From the NCBI RefSeq assembly GCF_907163085.1, contig NZ_CAJQTX010000002.1, positions 248,001 to 312,000 of the forward strand: DNA of 64,000 nucleotides, read 5' to 3'. Positions within the stretch are counted from its first letter, which is position 1. Every line of letters begins with the position of its first letter. Positions 27,370 to 35,900 of the stretch are shown here, piece after piece. Both the position numbers and the translations under genes were made by a program. The DNA is from Candidatus Accumulibacter sp. ACC003 (GTDB lineage: Bacteria; Pseudomonadota; Gammaproteobacteria; Burkholderiales; Rhodocyclaceae). The notes under the pieces are model-generated. The model was not told where the DNA came from, made no database searches, and saw only the letters and a list, made by a program, of their open reading frames with translations.

Positions 27370-27714
27370 ATGCGCAGCATCCACGCCATCCTGATCGCCC
27401 TGGCCCTCGCCGCCGCACCGGCACTGGCGCAGCAGCCAACCGATCTGCAACCGCTGCCGGCCATCCCGCCACCGCCACCCGAAATGGCTCCTCTCGACGA
27501 GAGCCTTGCCGAACCCGTCGTGACGATCAAGAAGCGCGAAGGCGACACCATAGAAGAGCACCGCATCAACGGCAAGCTCTACAAGATCGTCGTGACTCCC
27601 GAGCACGGCGTTCCCTACACGCTGATCGACCGCGAAGGCGAAGGCAACTTCAGCCGCGTCGAGATGGGCACGCCGACGCTGAGCGTGCCGATGTGGGTGA
27701 TCGGAACGTTCTGA
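27370..27714 (+). CDS. DUF2782 secreted small protein
   Basis: 114 residues with a clear signal peptide (cleavage likely after ALA at residue 19 or 20, before QQPTDLQPL), then a proline-rich linker and the conserved core VTIKKREGDTIEEHRINGKL followed by a GVPYTLID turn. DUF2782 proteins are small periplasmic proteins of unknown function often found beside polA and thrB in betaproteobacteria. It is followed 76 bp later by thrB. A decayed paralogue of its core occurs at about 32.1 kb. Confidence 0.85.
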   Translation: MRSIHAILIALALAAAPALAQQPTDLQPLPAIPPPPPEMAPLDESLAEPVVTIKKREGDTIEEHRINGKLYKIVVTPEHGVPYTLIDREGEGNFSRVEMGTPTLSVPMWVIGTF

Positions 27715-27790: not shown

Positions 27791-28738
27791 ATGTCGGTAT
27801 TCACCCAGCTGAGCGCCGCGCAGGTCGCCGCCTGGCTCGAGTCGTATTCCCTGGGAACGCTGCAATCGCTGACCGGGATCAGCGAAGGCGTGCAGAATTC
27901 CAACTTCTTTCTGAGCACGACGCACGGCGACTACGTGCTGACCGTCTTCGAACAGGTGCCGGCGGCGCAGGTCCCGCGCTACGTCCAGCTGCTGGCGCAT
28001 CTCGCGCAGCACGGCCTGCCGTGCCCGGCGCCGGTCGCCGACCGCTCCAGGCGGTACGTCAGCGCTCTCGGCGGCAAGCCGGCGGTGATCGTCAGCCGAC
28101 TCGCCGGCCGCTCCGAGAAATCGCCGAACGTCGCCCAATGCACGGCCATCGGCGACATGCTCGCGCGCCTGCACCGTGTCGCCGGCTCGTGGCCCGAAGC
28201 ACTGCCGCATCAACGCGACAGCCACTGGTGCGCCACCGTCGCGAGCGAGATCGCGCCCTTGCTCGACGACGCCGACGGCCGCCTGCTGCGCGACGAAGTC
28301 GCCCATCAGCAGGCGCAGCGGCCCGGCGACCTGCCACGCGGCGTCATCCACGCCGACCTCTTCCGCGACAACGCCCTGTTCACCGGCGACCGCCTCAGCG
28401 GCGTCCTCGACTTCTATTTCGCCGGTGTCGACGACCTGTTGTTCGACCTCGCGGTCACCGTCAACGACTGGTGCGCGCGGCCCGACGGCACACTCGACGA
28501 CCGCCGCTGCGCAGCGCTGCTTGACGCCTATCACGCGCAGCGACCGCTGCTCGCCGCCGAACACGCCGCCTGGCCGACGCTGCTGCGCGCCGCGGCGCTG
28601 CGTTTCTGGCTATCACGCCTGCACGATCGGCATCTGCCGCGCGCCGGCGAACTGATCACCGAGCGCGATCCCGACGCCTACCGAACGATCCTGCGGGCGC
28701 GCATCGCCAGCGGCAGTGACTGCCCCTGGCGATCATGA
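27791..28738 (+). CDS. thrB: Homoserine kinase (ThrB, aminoglycoside-phosphotransferase fold)
   Basis: 315 residues. It starts MSVFTQLSAAQVAAWLE and shows the nucleotide-binding N-lobe (ISEGVQNSNFFL; DYVLTVFE) and the catalytic segment IHADLFRDNALF with the Asp base, followed by the metal-binding VLDFYFAGVDDLLFDLA. This is the APH-fold ThrB of Pseudomonas and betaproteobacteria, not the GHMP type. It phosphorylates homoserine in threonine synthesis; homoserine dehydrogenase lies at 57.1 kb. Two partial, decayed copies of this gene occur at 32.2 and 34.8 kb. Confidence 0.95.
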   Translation: MSVFTQLSAAQVAAWLESYSLGTLQSLTGISEGVQNSNFFLSTTHGDYVLTVFEQVPAAQVPRYVQLLAHLAQHGLPCPAPVADRSRRYVSALGGKPAVIVSRLAGRSEKSPNVAQCTAIGDMLARLHRVAGSWPEALPHQRDSHWCATVASEIAPLLDDADGRLLRDEVAHQQAQRPGDLPRGVIHADLFRDNALFTGDRLSGVLDFYFAGVDDLLFDLAVTVNDWCARPDGTLDDRRCAALLDAYHAQRPLLAAEHAAWPTLLRAAALRFWLSRLHDRHLPRAGELITERDPDAYRTILRARIASGSDCPWRS

Positions 28739-28973
28739 TCGCCAACCCGGGCCGCGCGCGTCCTGGCGGCCATTACCGCCGCCGTGTTTGCCGACCCGTG
28801 ACCGCCGCCCAAAGCGACCTCGTCGAATCTTGACGGACTTTCCTTCGGCTCTGCTGGCCGACAATCACGACGGTGGGCGAGGACCTGACGATGTCGATCG
28901 CCAAGCGCTGGCTTTACCAAGGCCGGTGCACTATAACTAGACACATTCTTCGTCGGCTGGATGAGGTGCGCAA

Positions 28974-29651
28974 ATGAACGGTTGCCAAGGTGGAGGGTCG
29001 ATCGCCCCGCGCCCAGCGACGTGGCGATTCATGCCGCTGCAGGCCTCGTGCCTGGCGGCCTGCGCAACAACCGCGGCGGTGGACCAGATCAAGTACTTCT
29101 CGCAAGCCTTCGGGGCGGTCAACGCGGTCGGCCAAGCGCTGCTCGACGACCTGGCGATGGCCGAACGGACGCAGGGGCAGCAAATCGCCAGCCGCCGCGC
29201 CAAGGGCGAGAGCCAGGTCGGCGCTGACGACTGCCCCAGGGACCAGATCAGCTGGCAAGGGGCGGCTGGCAAACCCGGCATCATCCGCGGCTTCTGCCTG
29301 CACGATGCCGCGTACTTCTCCGACCTCGATGATCCGCCAGCGACGGCGCAACTGCGTGCGGCTCTGACGATCATCGAGCGCTACGCCGACCTGCTGTCCG
29401 CACTGAGTAATGGCCACAGCAGCGAAGCGGCACTCGGCGCTGTCGATGCCCTCAGCCATAACGTGAGCGGACTGCTGGGCAAGCTGCAAACCGCCTGGAA
29501 GCTCACCGTAGCCGCGGCCAATGCCCTACCGGGCAAAATCCCGCTCACCGTCCTGGTGCAGCAGAGCGCAACGCTCAAGGCTGACGCCGACGCCGCTCGA
29601 CGCATCTTCTCGATCCTGCGATCCGGCGCAATGGCGACGTCGGCCAGGTAG
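28974..29651 (+). CDS. Hypothetical helical protein, possible lipoprotein
   Basis: 225 residues, no family recognised. Near the N-terminus CLAACATTAAVDQ gives a lipobox-like LAAC (Cys30), but the hydrophobic stretch before it is short and polar, so export is uncertain. The rest is mostly Ala/Leu-rich helix (residues 40-60 and 105-220), with one Cys pair (about residues 83 and 105). It begins the accessory stretch after thrB, 235 bp away, and is followed by the lysozyme-like and DUF2235 genes in the same direction. AGG occurs about 7 bp before the ATG. Confidence 0.6.
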   Translation: MNGCQGGGSIAPRPATWRFMPLQASCLAACATTAAVDQIKYFSQAFGAVNAVGQALLDDLAMAERTQGQQIASRRAKGESQVGADDCPRDQISWQGAAGKPGIIRGFCLHDAAYFSDLDDPPATAQLRAALTIIERYADLLSALSNGHSSEAALGAVDALSHNVSGLLGKLQTAWKLTVAAANALPGKIPLTVLVQQSATLKADADAARRIFSILRSGAMATSAR

Positions 29652-29807
29652 TCTGGAGCAAGCAGAAAGGAGCATCTTGCCGGTTACTTCCCGCCACCGG
29701 AACAGTGCGACCTTGCCTCGAAACCGCCAGGTGGCGCGCATTTCCTGCCACGCTGGCAGCCCGTCGCACAGTGCTTTCGCCGTGGTTTTTTGAGAAAAGG
29801 AGAGGCC

Positions 29808-30764
29808 ATGAACACATCAAGCAAGGCTGAGATCGTGAGCGCCATGAACGTGCTCGTCACGCGTCGAGGCAATACCACCGACGCCGCCGAGAAAGCGGTG
29901 ATCAACGAGGTCCTCAAGAGCTTGTCGGAGTCACTTCAGGACCTGGACCATGCCGCGCTGCTCGAAGCCGCGCAGATCGTGGCGAATGCCACCGACGAAC
30001 TGGAGACGGTGGTCGCCGCGGCGCGCGTCGGCCCGTTCGACTCCTTCCTGTCCGACATCCAGAGCTCAATGCAGCGTCTACAGCACGAGCAGGCGGCCAT
30101 GCACGCCGTCGAGACCCTGCCGGTGGCGGAATTCGACGCCGCACCGCCGGCGCGCGCCGCGCCCGTGTCGGCCGCTGACGCGACGCCCAAGCCGCTCGAC
30201 AGCAAGGTATTCGACGACCTGCGTGCCGAATACCAGGACTTCTTCGACCGTTGCCAGATGCGCACGGAGTTCGCTGGCAACGTCGACTTTTACGTCTCGC
30301 GGCTGCTCAAGTTCAGGGACGTCTACCGCGACGTCGCTACTCCCCTGGGCATTCCCTGGTTCTTCATCGGCATTTTGCACGGCATGGAATGCGGCTTTGA
30401 TTTCGCCACCCACCTGCACAACGGCGACGTCCTGACCGCGCGCACCGTGCACGTGCCAAAAGGCCGTCCGGCGACCGGCATGCCACCCTTCAGCTGGCGT
30501 GAGAGCGCCCGCGACGCGCTGATTCTCAAGGGCTACAACCACGAGAGCGACTGGACTCTACCGCGCCAGCTCTACCTGTTCGAGAAATACAACGGCTTCG
30601 GCTACCGCCCTCTCGGGGTGCCATCGCCCTACCTGTGGAGTTTCTCGAACCTGTATACCAAGGGCAAGTTCGTTGGCGACCACGAGTTCAATCCGGACGC
30701 CCGCTCGCGGCAGTGCGGAACAGCGCTGATGATCAAGGCGCTGCAGAGCAAGGGCGCATTGTAG
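29808..30764 (+). CDS. Lysozyme-like peptidoglycan hydrolase domain protein
   Basis: 318 residues from the ATG at 29808, which has AAAGGAGAGG upstream. Residues 1-150 are a helical, Ala/Glu-rich region with a Pro/Ala linker at 112-130. Residues about 155-318 form a conserved domain I know from bacterial proteins described as lysozyme-like: FIGILHGMECGFDFATHLHN with Glu194 as likely catalytic acid, then ARTVHVPKGRP, PFSWRESARDAL, and late YNGFGYR and SPYLWSFSNLY. No signal peptide is visible, so it would need a dedicated exit route, lysis, or act in the cytosol. It lies between a possible lipoprotein and a DUF2235 hydrolase. Confidence 0.75.
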   Translation: MNTSSKAEIVSAMNVLVTRRGNTTDAAEKAVINEVLKSLSESLQDLDHAALLEAAQIVANATDELETVVAAARVGPFDSFLSDIQSSMQRLQHEQAAMHAVETLPVAEFDAAPPARAAPVSAADATPKPLDSKVFDDLRAEYQDFFDRCQMRTEFAGNVDFYVSRLLKFRDVYRDVATPLGIPWFFIGILHGMECGFDFATHLHNGDVLTARTVHVPKGRPATGMPPFSWRESARDALILKGYNHESDWTLPRQLYLFEKYNGFGYRPLGVPSPYLWSFSNLYTKGKFVGDHEFNPDARSRQCGTALMIKALQSKGAL

Positions 30765-30891
30765 GGCCGGCGCCGCGCCGCAAGACGACGCCACGGACGC
30801 GGCCCGGAAAACCAGATGGCGTCACTCGCGAGCAGCGCAGCAATTCACTGTTCTGCTACAGATCCAGTTCCACCACGGAAAGGAATTCGAG

Positions 30892-32034
30892 ATGGCAAAG
30901 AACATTGTCTTTTGTGCCGACGGGACGTGGAACAACCCCGACCAGGATGCCGACGCCGACCATACCGCCGACCCCACGAACGTCTACAAGCTGTTCCTGT
31001 GCCTGGCCGGAACGCTGTCGAGCGACTCCTTGCGGCAGGCCGACGAGCAGGAAAAGGTCCTGACCGGCGGCGCGATCGAGCAGGTCGCCAAATACATTCA
31101 CGGCGTCGGCGATTCCCGCAATCCGATCAAGAAGTTGATGGGAGGAGCTTTCGGCGCAGGCATCATTTCGCGTGTCGTCCGAGGCTATACGTTCATTTCG
31201 CGGAACTACGAACCGGGAGCGAACATTTTCATTACCGGCTTCAGTCGGGGTGCCTACACGGCGCGCGCGCTGGCGGGGCTGATCGTATCGCAGGGGCTGC
31301 TGACGAGAAAGCTGACCGAAGACAAGGAGCAAGCCTACCGGCTGGGTGCCGAGGCGTGGTATGGCTACCGCAAGACGACCATCAAACCGTCGAGTCTGCA
31401 CGGGCTAGCGGAAATCGCTGCCGATCTGCCGGCCTTCCTTTCGCGCGACAGGCTCGCGCCGACGGACCGCGTGCCGGTCGACCGCCTGGCGGCCGTCGCC
31501 GTATGGGATACTGTCGGCGCGCTGGGCATTCCGACCTATGCGGGTGGCAAGCACGTGGACACCTTCCAGTTTGCCGATACCAGGCTGAGCGAGAAAGTAG
31601 GCCACGGTTTTCACGCGGTTTCGCTCGACGAGCGCCGCAATGACTTCACGCCGACGCTGTGGGATCAGGCAGACAATGTGACGCAGGTGCTTTTCCCGGG
31701 TGCTCACGCCGACGTTGGCGGCGGTTACCCGGTGGCCAATCACGAGAGTGGCCTGTCGGATGGCGCCTTGCAGTGGATGCTCGACCGCCTGCAGGCGACT
31801 GGCGTTCTGCTGGCCAGCGCGCCAGCGTGGCCGATTGCGCCGAACCCGGCCGGCACCGCCCACCAGCCCTGGCAGCACAGGCCGTGGACACTTCCCGGCG
31901 TCTCGCTCGGGGCGAGGAGTTTTCCACCAGGGACGCCCGCGGACCCATCGATTGCCGCGCGTCGCGGCGCCGGCAAAGTCGTTGCGGAACCCGGCGAAGC
32001 CGCCCGGCCTTATCAACCGGCAAACCTGCCATGA
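30892..32034 (+). CDS. DUF2235 alpha/beta hydrolase (putative phospholipase/esterase)
   Basis: 380 residues. The start KNIVFCADGTWNNPDQD and the nucleophile elbow ITGFSRGAYTARAL (Ser118) identify the DUF2235 hydrolase family, which includes type VI secretion Tle1-type phospholipases and stand-alone enzymes. Later conserved pieces are VAVWDTVGALG (acid residue) and FPGAHADVGGGYP (His). The catalytic triad looks intact. No VgrG, PAAR or immunity gene is visible next to it. It follows the lysozyme-like gene by 127 bp and ends only about 30 bp before a decayed DUF2782-thrB fragment. Confidence 0.85.
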   Translation: MAKNIVFCADGTWNNPDQDADADHTADPTNVYKLFLCLAGTLSSDSLRQADEQEKVLTGGAIEQVAKYIHGVGDSRNPIKKLMGGAFGAGIISRVVRGYTFISRNYEPGANIFITGFSRGAYTARALAGLIVSQGLLTRKLTEDKEQAYRLGAEAWYGYRKTTIKPSSLHGLAEIAADLPAFLSRDRLAPTDRVPVDRLAAVAVWDTVGALGIPTYAGGKHVDTFQFADTRLSEKVGHGFHAVSLDERRNDFTPTLWDQADNVTQVLFPGAHADVGGGYPVANHESGLSDGALQWMLDRLQATGVLLASAPAWPIAPNPAGTAHQPWQHRPWTLPGVSLGARSFPPGTPADPSIAARRGAGKVVAEPGEAARPYQPANLP

Positions 32035-32065
32035 CGCGCCAGGAACATCGCCACCTGGCGCACCG

Positions 32066-32385
32066 CCGCCGCTGCCGGGAATCCTGCCACTGGCGACCGC
32101 TCCGCTCGACGAGAGCCTGGTTGATCCGGTGATGACGATCAAGAAGCGCGTAGGCAACAGCCGCGAAGAGCAACGCATCACCGGCAAACTCGACAGGATC
32201 GTCGTGACTCCGAGCACGGCGTGATTCACGCTGACCGCCTTCACGACAACGCACTGTTTGCCGGCGACCGCCTCAGCGGCGTCCTCAACTTCCATTTCGC
32301 CAGCGTCGACGACCTGCTGTTCGACCTCGCGGTCACGGCCAATGACTGGAGCGCGCCGCCCGGCGGCGCGCTCGACGAATCGATG
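32066..32385 (+). pseudogene. Decayed second copy of DUF2782 fused to thrB middle part
   Basis: Bases 32066-32222 align with the intact DUF2782 gene at about 27445-27606 (shared CTCGACGAGAGCC, ATGACGATCAAGAAGCGCG-like and ATCGTCGTGACTCC segments). Bases 32222-32385 align with the middle of thrB at about 28343-28505 (GCGACCGCCTCAGCGGCGTC, GACCTCGCGGTCAC). The joint falls at CACGGCGT, a short sequence similar in both genes, so the thrB 5' end and DUF2782 3' end were lost by deletion. There is no signal peptide and no complete frame. Identity looks high but clearly below 100 percent, so the copy is old or came from a relative. Confidence 0.85.
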
Positions 32386-33020
32386 GCGACGATGGAACGA
32401 TCCATATCGCGCATTGATCGCTCCATGCGGGCGATGCACCGATGGCTACGGAAGTACGAGCGCCGGATCAAAAAATATCAGCACTGGCTCGGCAAGGATG
32501 AAGAATGGACCAGAAAGATTGAAGCGTGATCGACGCGCATGCAGCGGCAGATCGATCCGATCCAGGCTTCGCTGGCGGCGATCTGCACGTTTATCGAAAA
32601 CAGCCAGCGATCACCGTCGCGCAGCGAAGTTTTCATCGCCGCGATGAAGCAATCGCCGCCGACGATCGACGGCTCGCCTGACGGCGTCCAGGCCTCGACT
32701 CGCGCCGTTCGAATGCCTGGCGCCCGAGCCGGCGAAAGCCAGTGCCACCTGCTCGCCGGAAGCTGCGCGAGGAATCGCGCGTTCACGACAAGGCGTCCGA
32801 CGACGACGGCCGCTGCTGCGGCAGGATTGCAGTGCCATGAGTTCGAACTGGGCGATCGAGGCGTGTTCTTTGCGCTCGTGCCATGAACATTCTAATGTTG
32901 GTGAGGTTCTGGGCGTCGCGCTTGCCTTCACTCCGCGCCCAAGTGCCCTGCCGCACGACCCCTTTGACCAAACCGCGTCGTTGGACGTTTCGACAATCGA
33001 CCAAAACGGTGAACGACGCG
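32386..33020. other. Gene-poor remnant region
   Basis: No supported gene. The frame that carries the thrB fragment runs on to 32529 and would encode a short, charged helical stretch (MERSISRIDRSMRAMH and onward), rich in Arg, Lys and aromatic residues, but it has no ribosome site of its own and looks like readthrough of debris. The remainder shows no conserved coding pattern in any frame that I recognise. Confidence 0.5.
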
Positions 33021-33066
33021 GTCAGGTCTTTGTCCGCCGTGCCTTGGGCAAAAGTCAAGACCTGAC
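33021..33066. repeat. REP-like hairpin element, intact copy
   Basis: Perfect 10-bp inverted repeat GTCAGGTCTT (33021-33030) and AAGACCTGAC (33057-33066) with a 26-bp loop. A related but degenerate copy lies at 34711-34751. It resembles the scattered palindromes linked to REP-associated transposases, from memory. Confidence 0.6.
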
Positions 33067-33088
33067 CCCTTTGTATGCTTTTCAAGGA

Positions 33089-33319
33089 TCGGAGCTTCCC
33101 CGCGGCGTCGGGATGCTTCCCGGATGCGTTGGGATACTTCCACGAGGTGTCGGGATACTTCCACGAGGTGTCGGGATGCTCCCCGGATGCGTCGGGATGC
33201 TTCCATGAGGTGTCGGGATGCTCCCCGGATGCGTCACGATGCTTCAACGAGGCGTCACGATGCTTCCCTGATGCGTCACGATGCTTCAACGAGGCGTCAC
33301 GATGCTTCCCCGATGCCTG
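33089..33319. repeat. 21-bp tandem repeat array, about 11 units
   Basis: Eleven consecutive 21-bp units with no spacer; typical units are GGGATGCTCCCCGGATGCGTC, shown here by its halves GGGATGCTCC and CCGGATGCGTC, and ACGATGCTTC plus AACGAGGCGTC. Two unit types alternate in places, which suggests growth by duplication of 42-bp pairs. Because 21 is a multiple of three, all frames stay open and give 7-residue repeats, for example KHRDASG and EHPDTSW on the minus strand, CFPDAS/CFNEAS on the plus strand. Confidence 0.9.
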
Positions 33320-33515
33320 CGGCCGCCTCCCTGCTCATCCAGTGGCCGATTCGGCAGGAGAGATTGCCGGCACGGATCAAGCTGTGCGCATTATCGGCGT
33401 CAAAGACCAGGTCATCGCCCAATTCGGGCCCAATTCCGACCAGGTCGCCTCGCTGGGCCTGAAGAAGAAATCCGAGCGCAAGTCACCGGCCCGCGCCAGC
33501 AAACCTGCCGCGTAG
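33320..33515 (+). pseudogene. Possible 3' remnant of a hypothetical gene
   Basis: The plus-strand frame that reads through the tandem repeats continues for about 65 codons after them, with a plausible protein-like end (VKDQVIAQFGPNSDQVASLG, then a Lys/Arg/Ser-rich tail KKKSERKSP and a stop at 33515). The basic tail and FGPNSD segment look like a real C-terminus whose 5' part is missing or replaced by the repeat. I know no family name for it. Confidence 0.35.
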
Positions 33516-33647
33516 ATCGGCGCCTGTGATTTGGCACGCGTTCAGGATGGCCGAACACAGGGGAGGCGGGGAACAGGCGGAAACAGCGGACGCACCACGG
33601 TTTTCCGGAGCCAGGATCGCATTAAGGACGTCCAAAACTCGGTTCTA

Positions 33648-33708
33648 AACCGTGATCTGTCCCCGAATCTCGCCCGAATCTCCGAACCGTGGTCTGTCCC
33701 CGAATCTC
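33648..33708. repeat. Two 24-bp direct repeats
   Basis: AACCGTGATCTGTCCCC followed by GAATCTC at 33648-33671 recurs with one mismatch (GTGGTCTG) at 33685-33708. The inverse form, GGGGACAGACCACGG, resembles a widespread REP-type sequence from memory. The pair lies between the debris region and the PEP-CTERM terminator. Confidence 0.6.
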
Positions 33709-33760
33709 ATCCCTTTGAACAAACCGCGCCGCGCGTATGACCCCGTCGTGCGGGATCCGG

Positions 33761-33790
33761 AAAAAACAAGACCCCGCCGAAGCGGGGTCT
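33761..33790 (-). terminator. Rho-independent terminator of the PEP-CTERM gene
   Basis: On the minus strand a perfect 9-bp stem (AGACCCCGC / GCGGGGTCT) with a 4-base loop is followed by TTGTTTTTTCC. It begins 19 bp after the stop codon of the PEP-CTERM gene. Confidence 0.9.
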
Positions 33791-33808
33791 GTGGCCGTAA
33801 TTGCGACA

Positions 33809-34474
33809 CTACGCTTTCTTGCGGCGTCCGAATCCGAGGCCGGCCAGGCCAAGACCGAGAAGGGCAAGACTGGCGGGCTCGGGAACCGCACCGGGATCGA
33901 CTTTGGTGACCGTGAAATCGATGTTGTCGATCGCGGTGTCGTAGGAGTCGGGGCCAAAATAGATGTAAATACCGGAACTTGACGTATAGGGCCCGGAGAT
34001 AGACACATGCCCCGACTGTGGGAATGTCAGGGTAGCGTTATAGAGTGGCGCGTTATTTCCGTCCTCAATCGTGACGACGGTCGTGTAGTTCTGGAAATAC
34101 CCACCCCCGTCGAAACCATTCAGCGTCACTTGATATCCTGCAAGTGGCTTCAGGAAGACACCCGCTGCACCCGCAGCAACGGTCGCCCCGTAGATGACAT
34201 TTGTCAGGTTACCGTAATTAGAGTTAAACCAAAGCATCCTACCGCTGGGCATACCCCAGTTGGCGCCGATCCCGGTATTGTTGTTGTACTGGACGTCAAG
34301 CTGGCCGACGACGTCACCGTAAGTTTGGTCGACCGGGCGCCCTTGGGTGCAAGCAGAGCCGCCATCGCAAATATCACCATCGAAAGTCAGTACATAGGCG
34401 TTGGCTCCGCTAGCGACCACAGTGAGGCTGGCGATAGTGGCCGCCACTGCCAGCAGTGAGGTTCTGGTCTTCAT
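33809..34474 (-). CDS. PEP-CTERM sorting-domain exported protein
   Basis: 221 residues. A signal peptide (MKTRTSLLAVAATIASLTVV, cleavage after ANA) is followed by a beta-rich, Gly/Asn/Tyr-rich body with one Cys pair (CDGGSAC). The C-terminus is a textbook PEP-CTERM: VPEPASLALLGLGLAGLGF then RRKKA. Exosortase would cut at PEP and the protein would be displayed or released with exopolysaccharide. No exosortase is in the window. AAGGGG precedes the ATG. A sigma-54-type promoter lies 73-87 bp upstream. Base use is less GC-rich than in the neighbours. Confidence 0.95.
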   Translation of the reverse strand: MKTRTSLLAVAATIASLTVVASGANAYVLTFDGDICDGGSACTQGRPVDQTYGDVVGQLDVQYNNNTGIGANWGMPSGRMLWFNSNYGNLTNVIYGATVAAGAAGVFLKPLAGYQVTLNGFDGGGYFQNYTTVVTIEDGNNAPLYNATLTFPQSGHVSISGPYTSSSGIYIYFGPDSYDTAIDNIDFTVTKVDPGAVPEPASLALLGLGLAGLGFGRRKKA

Positions 34475-34546
34475 GTGTGCAACCCCTTTCTTGAGGAAAA
34501 TAGTGGCCGGCCTGAAAGGTCGGAATGGTGCTACGCAGATCCCAAA

Positions 34547-34561
34547 GCAGAACTTGTGCCA
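34547..34561 (-). promoter_or_regulatory. Sigma-54 (RpoN) promoter for the PEP-CTERM gene
   Basis: On the minus strand TGGCACAAGTTCTGC matches the -24/-12 consensus TGGCACGnnnnTTGC at all but two places, with correct spacing between GG and GC. It predicts a transcript start near 34535, giving a leader of about 60 bases. PEP-CTERM genes are known to be controlled by the PrsK/PrsR-RpoN system in floc-forming betaproteobacteria. Confidence 0.75.
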
Positions 34562-34794
34562 CTTAGCAAAATTTCGACGTTTATTGGCTAAGAAACAGAT
34601 GGTTAGGAACTTCCGCTCCTAGTGGTCCCTGCCCGGCCAGGAGCCTTGGTGTAAAGAATTCCGACACTTCCGCTTGACACTGGGGGAAAAGTAGTGTTGT
34701 TCGCGGGCTAGCAGGTCTTTTCCCGTGCCTTTGGCAAAAGTCGAGACCGGCCCCCTTCGCCTCTGCGCACGGTACCGCCATCGGCGGCATGTTC
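34562..34794. other. Upstream region of the PEP-CTERM gene
   Basis: No gene seen. The stretch is AT-richer next to the sigma-54 site and would be where an enhancer-binding activator binds; no clear palindromic site stands out. The degenerate REP-like element lies at its far end. Confidence 0.4.
34711..34751. repeat. REP-like hairpin element, degenerate copy
   Basis: GCAGGTCTTTT, then GTGCCTTTGGCAAAAGTCGAGACCGGC, follows the same order as the intact copy at 33021-33066 (shared core GGCAAAAGTC), but the arms no longer pair fully. Confidence 0.5.
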
Positions 34795-34935
34795 GCCCGC
34801 TTGCAGCGCGACAAAGTCCCCATCAGCAGGCGCAGCGACCCGGCGAGCTGATCGCCGAGCACCACCCCGACGCCTACCGAGCGATCATGCGGGCGCACAT
34901 CGCCAACGGCAGCACCTGCCCCTGGCGACGATGAC
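34795..34935 (+). pseudogene. Decayed thrB fragment with internal deletion
   Basis: Bases 34800-34850 match thrB around 28283-28334 (CATCAGCAGGCGCAGCG is identical). From there to 34935 the sequence matches the very end of thrB, 28643-28738 (GACGCCTACCGA, ATCGCCA-CGGCAG, TGCCCCTGGCGA, then the stop). The junction is at CCGGCGAnCTG, which occurs at both places in the intact gene, so about 310 bp were deleted between short direct repeats. It lies 230 bp before the BPSS1780 gene. Confidence 0.85.
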
Positions 34936-35162
34936 CGAACACCGTGATCTGGCGGAAGAAGACGATTTTGCAGCACGTGACGAAATCCGCAAGCCGATCA
35001 AGCGTATCCTAGTGAGCCGCCGGAGCAGCGCCGACGACTGCCGTGGCAGCCCGGCGCGAATCCTGGCAGCGCTGGCGTCCGGCGCAGCGCACGCGTTCCT
35101 TGCCTCGTCAGCGGCGGGCCGCTAGCATCTGATTTATCAACCTCTTCGATACGAGGATCGTC
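34936..35162. other. Intergenic region before the BPSS1780 genes
   Basis: No supported gene. A short open frame continues from the thrB remnant (ARDEIRKPIKRILVS) to 35125 but shows no family features. The promoter for the membrane-protein pair should be near 35100-35150; no consensus pair is evident. Confidence 0.4.
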
Positions 35163-35900
35163 ATGCAAGCGTTCCCGATACCGGCGCCGCGGTTCACCGG
35201 CGGCAGCCGCCGCGTCGACGCCGGCAGCGCCTGGAACTGGCTCACGCAGGGCTGGGCCATGTTCATCGCCCATCCCGGCACCTGGATAGCGATGATGGTC
35301 ATTCTGATCGTCATCTATCTGGGGCTGGCGATCGTGCCACTGGTGGGGCAACTGGCGGCGCACGTGCTCACCCCGGTTCTTGCCGGCGGCATGCTGATCG
35401 CCTGTCAGAAGGTTGCGGACGAACAGACGCCGGCAATCGCCGACCTTTTCGCCGGCTTCCAGCGCAGCACCGGCGCGCTGGCGACGCTCGGCGTGCTGTA
35501 CATGCTGGGCATGCTGGCAGTCTTTCTGGTCATCGTGCTGCTGGCCGGTGGCGGCCTCGCTGGTGGCATGATGCTCAACCAGTCGCTCGCAGCCGGCATC
35601 GCCGTCGGCAGCCTGTTGCTGGCCATGCTGCTCGGGATGCTACTGACGGTACCGCTGTTGATGGCCATCTGGTTCGCGCCGGCGCTGGTCGTTTTCAACG
35701 GCATGCAGCCGGTCGACGCGCTCAAGGCCAGCTTCAACGCCTGCCTGAAGAACGTCCTGGTGTTCACGGTCTACGGTCTGTTCACCATGGTGCTGTGCTT
35801 TTTCGCCGCACTGCCCGTCGGCTTGGGGTTTCTGGTCCTTGGGCCGGTACTCGCCGGCTCCGTGTATGCTTCCTACAAAGATATCTTCCTGGCCACCTGA
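35163..35900 (+). CDS. BPSS1780-type membrane protein (first of two)
   Basis: 245 residues with five to six hydrophobic helices. The N-terminal soluble start (PIPAPRFTGGSRRVDAGSAW) followed by W-x-x-QGWAMFIAHPGTW is typical of BPSS1780-family membrane proteins of unknown function. The segment FNGMQPVDALKASFNACLKN before a helix, and the C-terminal LAGSVYASYKDIF, are also characteristic. It is paired with a homologous gene 17 bp downstream, so the two probably form one complex or arose by duplication. Confidence 0.82.
   Translation: MQAFPIPAPRFTGGSRRVDAGSAWNWLTQGWAMFIAHPGTWIAMMVILIVIYLGLAIVPLVGQLAAHVLTPVLAGGMLIACQKVADEQTPAIADLFAGFQRSTGALATLGVLYMLGMLAVFLVIVLLAGGGLAGGMMLNQSLAAGIAVGSLLLAMLLGMLLTVPLLMAIWFAPALVVFNGMQPVDALKASFNACLKNVLVFTVYGLFTMVLCFFAALPVGLGFLVLGPVLAGSVYASYKDIFLAT

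Follow-up and report, generated by a model that had tools for sequence, protein, structure and literature searches.

The 6.2 kilobases (kb) of DNA that separate the homoserine kinase gene thrB from the BPSS1780-family gene in Candidatus Accumulibacter sp. ACC003 are best read as a composite, lineage-specific insertion built around a duplication of the gene pair DUF2782-thrB, a reading to which we assign a probability of about 75%. The region was analysed within a window of 64,000 nucleotides (nt), corresponding to contig C2:248001-312000 of a draft genome of 5.39 megabases in 13 contigs, and the locus lies inside a contig of 637 kb. Coordinates are those of the window unless a contig or locus record is named. 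From left to right the insert consists of a three-gene cassette ending in a hydrolase gene, a relic in which parts of DUF2782 and thrB are joined (DUF2782'/thrB'), repeat debris with a PEP-CTERM gene, and a second relic, from the 3' end of thrB. The combination of duplication, insertion and decay is well supported, while the recombination route is not. The native genes that frame the locus are the following.

27370..27714, plus strand: native intact DUF2782 gene (PF11191, 4.3e-27), adjoining polA as in relatives
27791..28738, plus strand: native intact thrB (homoserine kinase equivalog NF003558, 2.3e-117, over the cut-off)
35163..35900, plus strand: BPSS1780-family gene (NF041043, 6.5e-63), the ancestral right neighbour of thrB

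Gene order was compared across 28 genomes of the genus, own genome included, with matches counted at E <= 0.001. Twenty-four of these (own included) contain thrB, leaving 23 relatives for comparison. All 23 keep the DUF2782-thrB order, and 17 of them show the empty ancestral site, with BPSS1780 lying 61-262 nt past thrB (measured between match ends). In the other six (L053, L054, L055, L056, L030 and L046) the gene directly 3' of thrB encodes a methyltransferase of about 430 amino acids (aa); BPSS1780 comes next in four of them, while the available stretch ends earlier in two. Sampling of the order recovered thrB in 56 of 60 genomes (own included) and loci for 29 of the 55 others; in these other genera a BPSS1780-like gene stands directly 3' of thrB in 25 of the 29 loci. 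Within the window the two genes are 6.4 kb apart, and none of the 23 relatives has the 6.2 kb of the insert at this place. Because thrB-BPSS1780 adjacency prevails both in the genus and in the order, the arrangement of the window is derived, and the ancestral order DUF2782-thrB-BPSS1780 suggested in a preliminary description of this DNA is confirmed. As a separate observation, thrB gave no match at E <= 0.001 in G011, G023 and G025, which are rated 99-100% complete, or in G016 (72% complete); the first three perhaps carry another homoserine kinase in its place.

Two relics of the native gene pair were recognised in the insert.

32069..32378, plus strand: relic X, a fusion of DUF2782' (32069-32237, 78%, 141 bits) with an internal part of thrB (32217-32378, 86%, 189 bits; equivalent to thrB 28339-28500)
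34765..34937, plus strand: relic Y, made of three pieces of thrB and lacking two internal segments (5' piece 34774-34808, 83%, 37 bits; middle piece 34794-34850, 88%, 71 bits; 3' piece 34832-34934, 83.5% over 103 nt, 110 bits), ending in the in-frame terminal thrB stop, TGA, at 34932-34934

The five relic matches score 37-189 bits, whereas Markov-1 resampling of the insert, done 200 times and giving any match in 149, reached 34.6 bits at most. The 37-bit piece on its own is therefore barely above chance. The recognisable homology of DUF2782' starts no more than about 35 nt past the hydrolase stop codon, and the joints between relic pieces, as read off the alignments, appear to fall at short shared words. 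These results bear on the preliminary description in several ways. The thrB 3' end fragment with stop codon that it reported near the right boundary is real, homologous to thrB and better than all 200 resamples. Of its "broken copies of thrB" bounding the insert, the right one is indeed broken and the left one is intact, and it missed the larger relic X. The thrB pieces are moreover out of order, which calls either for several extra copies or for an additional rearrangement.

About 243 kb away on the same contig lies a second copy of the hydrolase 3' half together with relic X, here called copy Z (L008 6549-8070; C2:36549-38070). It comprises a truncated DUF2235 copy, DUF2782'/thrB' and repeats, and its DUF2782'-thrB' fusion junction is identical to that of relic X. 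The direction of copying between the two places is one that we infer. The gene just before copy Z we take to resemble a SulP permease. Three further candidates were set aside. A frame at 32221-32529, joining the thrB piece to a coiled coil, was considered as a new chimeric gene and rejected because copy Z has a 2-nt gap within the thrB part, so that the frame is not conserved. A thrB match at C7:123755-123803 (49 base pairs (bp), 80%, E 9.9e-4) was taken as probable chance, and an alignment hint that the duplicated block starts exactly at the DUF2782 start codon failed the shuffle control.

The origin of the relics was examined by similarity, phylogeny and codon position. All five relic fragments tested are closer to the own copy than to any of the 23 relatives. 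In the tree, own thrB groups with relic X and copy Z apart from all relatives (ultrafast bootstrap 96), and likewise with relic Y (97). The two longest pieces of relic thrB differ from own thrB evenly over codon positions (8, 5 and 10 for X; 8, 8 and 5 for Y), whereas own thrB and that of G015, the closest thrB among the relatives (76%), differ mainly at third positions in the regions matching X and Y (6, 5 and 19; 6, 5 and 16). The contrast between the relics and the own-G015 pair is significant (Fisher p 0.009). The relics are thus nearest to their local parent and have lost coding constraint, both properties of duplication-derived pseudogenes. Because they group with own thrB and differ from it evenly across codon positions, X and Y look like lineage-specific decayed duplicates. 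The earlier proposal that thrB was duplicated and its right copy decayed is accordingly upheld by fragment identity, tree, codon-position pattern and alignments.

The edges of the added DNA were placed by aligning both spacers to the thrB-BPSS1780 spacer of G015, with 200 shuffles for each alignment.

28739..28973, unstranded: left junction, the spacer after the thrB stop, with no second copy in the genome
34938..35162, unstranded: native thrB-BPSS1780 spacer, probably with the remnant of a methyltransferase 3' end, recognised by way of G015

The 225 nt 3' of relic Y align with the G015 spacer (131.5 against 81.5 +/- 8.8, maximum 107, in shuffles), whereas the 235 nt 3' of intact thrB show no significant match to it (100 against 87.9 +/- 8.2, maximum 112.5). 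Because the right spacer matches G015 and the left does not, the alignments place the added DNA at 28739-34934 (6.2 kb), with the right edge at 34934-34937. The boundary first drawn at 35162 lies 225 bp too far, as 34938-35162 is native spacer common with G015. Alignments with 1000 shuffles each detected a remnant of the methyltransferase 3' end in the G015 spacer (56-59 against about 20 +/- 4) and likeness between the window and G015 spacers (62 against 21 +/- 4), with none of the 1000 shuffles as good in either case. Direct comparison of the window spacer with the methyltransferase was not significant, 64-121 of 1000 shuffles being equally good. A methyltransferase remnant is probably present in the window spacer, as judged from the chain of window to G015 and G015 to methyltransferase.

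The cassette spans 28974-32034, between the thrB stop and DUF2782', and consists of three genes.

28974..29651, plus strand: lipoprotein-like gene, 225 aa, with the motif LAAC, presumably lipobox-like
29808..30764, plus strand: gene for a 318-aa protein, several plasmid relatives of which are annotated "peptidoglycan-binding protein"
30892..32034, plus strand: DUF2235 gene with a Tle1-like phospholipase domain (PF09994, 8.9e-69)

The 225-aa protein finds no counterpart at E <= 0.001 in the 27 other genomes of the genus and a single relative (38%, in G369) in 368 other genomes of the class. The 318-aa protein has one weak partial match in the same 27 genomes and four relatives among the 368, and a pattern search of named genomes found nine (eight Hyphomicrobium and one Burkholderiales). 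It belongs to no Pfam or NCBIfam family, its Pfam matches all lying below threshold. Its structure model (mean predicted local distance difference test score, pLDDT, of 61) gave a best PDB fold match at E 0.83, which is not usable, and a profile search of PDB sequences gave a best E of 0.019, at profile positions 40-129, to a molecule named aBAK. The label "lysozyme" in the preliminary description was thus not confirmed.

The third protein matches the whole PF09994 profile and passes its cut-off, and its sequence weakly matches 9j3f (0.0032), a Tle1 phospholipase-domain protein of solved structure. Members of the family occur in 25 of the 28 genus genomes (own included). The nearest relative (63%) is in G019, on a contig other than that of the G019 thrB and without the lipoprotein/318-aa pair. 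The PF09994 (DUF2235) family is named Tox-AB hydrolase1 in PMC3482391. The cassette protein resembles the Tle1-like members of this family in its full catalytic-domain profile but differs in being a small stand-alone protein of 380 aa, and the scanned proteins of the insert include no delivery family.

Among the 368 class genomes sampled, G369 alone has both genes of the pair. There (L118 6756-9714) the lipoprotein and 318-aa relatives stand side by side, and the next gene encodes a caspase-like protein (Peptidase_C14), in the position that the Tle1-like hydrolase takes in the window. Twelve plasmid records contain 318-aa relatives, all below 60% identity and one with at least 80% coverage. 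Three of the twelve matches were inspected: hydrolase genes lie near in two (a patatin-like phospholipase and an S8 peptidase on a Paroceanicella plasmid, a serine protease on the second) and none is evident in the third. It could be imagined that the cassette represents a mobile module not described before, lytic or defence-like in kind, in which a lipoprotein-like and 318-aa peptidoglycan-related pair is joined by an exchangeable third hydrolase. We regard this as doubtful, because the lipoprotein stands beside a 318-aa relative in only one of 13 loci compared (G369) and because the G019 hydrolase occurs without the pair. That the cassette came from a phage or plasmid was rejected on the PHROG, phage, plasmid and viral-contig searches. 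PHROG gave no match for the three cassette proteins, its sole match being to the frame at 34007-34459 (a family of unknown function, 0.0041). The 318-aa protein has one distant phage match (33% over 52%, E 3e-16). No relative of it was confirmed on viral contigs by a pattern search that reaches close relatives only, and no thrB was confirmed on them. PADLOC likewise reported nothing for the three proteins.

Between the relics lie repeat debris and one gene.

32379..32746, plus strand: dispersed repeat with a coiled-coil-like reading frame (own-genome copies on C7, 87%; C2, 83-88%; C7, 76%)
33022..33071, unstranded: short dispersed motif, with a second copy at 34723-34757 (the pair 89% over 35 nt)
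33094..33316, plus strand: 21-bp tandem repeat array (related array at C9:187516-187825, 80%)
33389..33712, plus strand: 3' end of a 121-aa gene, whose 5' part is missing here, with the DNA following it (97% to C9:188184-188507)
33809..34474, minus strand: PEP-CTERM protein gene (PF07589, 6.4e-8)

The stretch 32379-33712 is made of pieces of repeat families that occur elsewhere in the own genome. Matches to it were found in 19 of the 27 other genus genomes (E <= 0.001; 14 candidates scored per genome), though several of these genomes gave only matches about 30-60 nt long. In the C9 counterpart of 33389-33712, the last part of an open 121-aa frame (L123 2946-3311) makes up the first part of the piece. 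Outside its sorting tail, the PEP-CTERM protein has weak genus relatives only, among the matches listed. The short dispersed motif of 33022-33071 and 34723-34757 is CAAGACCTGACCCC-like, flanks the repeat/PEP-CTERM part at both ends and occurs in several genus genomes. On own contig C9 (L123 2572-3311) and in G006 (L167), a gene with a KKKSERK-type end is preceded by a 21-bp tandem array, and several other genomes of the genus have matches to array and gene end near one another.

Taken as a composite insertion, the locus suggests the following history. After the split from the compared relatives, DUF2782-thrB was duplicated rightward, as sequence and tree show. The left copy by polA stayed intact while the extra copy or copies lost constraint, and segments were apparently deleted from the latter at short shared words. 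The cassette may have entered at the junction between copies, and the repeat debris and PEP-CTERM gene may have come later between the relics, as the 97% identity of one piece suggests. The most likely route would be tandem duplication or small amplification by recombination, followed by insertion at a copy junction and decay. The preliminary description held that the whole stretch arrived with a duplication of thrB or by recombination between copies. The duplication is supported, and one single arrival is unlikely because the pieces probably differ in age and source: the relics are 78-88% identical to the native genes, one repeat piece is 97% identical to another contig and two cassette genes lack a real match in the 27 other genus genomes.

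A joint arrival would nevertheless follow from single-crossover integration, in which a DNA circle bearing DUF2782-thrB and the cassette came from a close relative outside the sample and recombined with the chromosomal thrB. Such an event gives the order seen, thrB-cassette-DUF2782'-thrB', with native flanks on both sides. We consider it unlikely, though worth keeping in mind: the relics are nearest to the own copy and not to any of the 23 relatives, the donor would already need the cassette beside thrB, an arrangement that a search of the 27 other genus genomes did not find, and the order of the relic pieces stays unexplained. An intact thrB at the left and a 3' end with stop codon displaced to the right also recall a site-specific island that integrated into the thrB 3' end, restored the gene and left the displaced end opposite. 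This is very improbable, as the 15 frames scanned, of 51 that overlap the insert (at least 60 aa; the others mostly overlap these 15), yielded no recognisable integrase or transposase and no phage gene of assigned function, the repeat is only about 83% identical (83.5% over 103 nt, longest exact run 15 nt) instead of a near-exact att repeat, and such integration would not copy a relic with DUF2782 and internal thrB. An assembly artefact or contamination, which a draft genome in 13 contigs and two cassette genes without real genus match might suggest, hardly merits belief, since the stretch lies within a 637-kb contig, its repeat pieces recur in the own genome and genus, the DUF2235 tail and relic are duplicated on the same contig, and the relics are divergent where copies made by misassembly would be identical.

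The composite insertion shows how a conserved gene neighbourhood is opened, with decaying duplicates marking the steps, and a common fusion junction ties together two distant places of one genome. Given more sequenced strains, the relics could date the event, and the cassette offers a lead to an uncharacterised lipoprotein/peptidoglycan/hydrolase gene group. Among the entries listed by literature searches, no title or abstract opening concerned this insertion. The process itself is known, and the locus is a well-preserved new example of ordinary genome evolution. Genomic islands at gene 3' ends leave displaced 3' fragments, and the thrB 3' end at the far boundary resembles these; here, however, the scanned frames show no recognisable integrase, an exact att-like repeat is lacking and one relic includes the upstream gene. 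Tandem gene duplication followed by pseudogene decay is a general process, and the locus shares with it the partial extra copies beside an intact one, the even codon-position differences and the internal deletions, but differs in that its copies are interleaved with a cassette and repeats, lie out of order and include one with a further copy far away.
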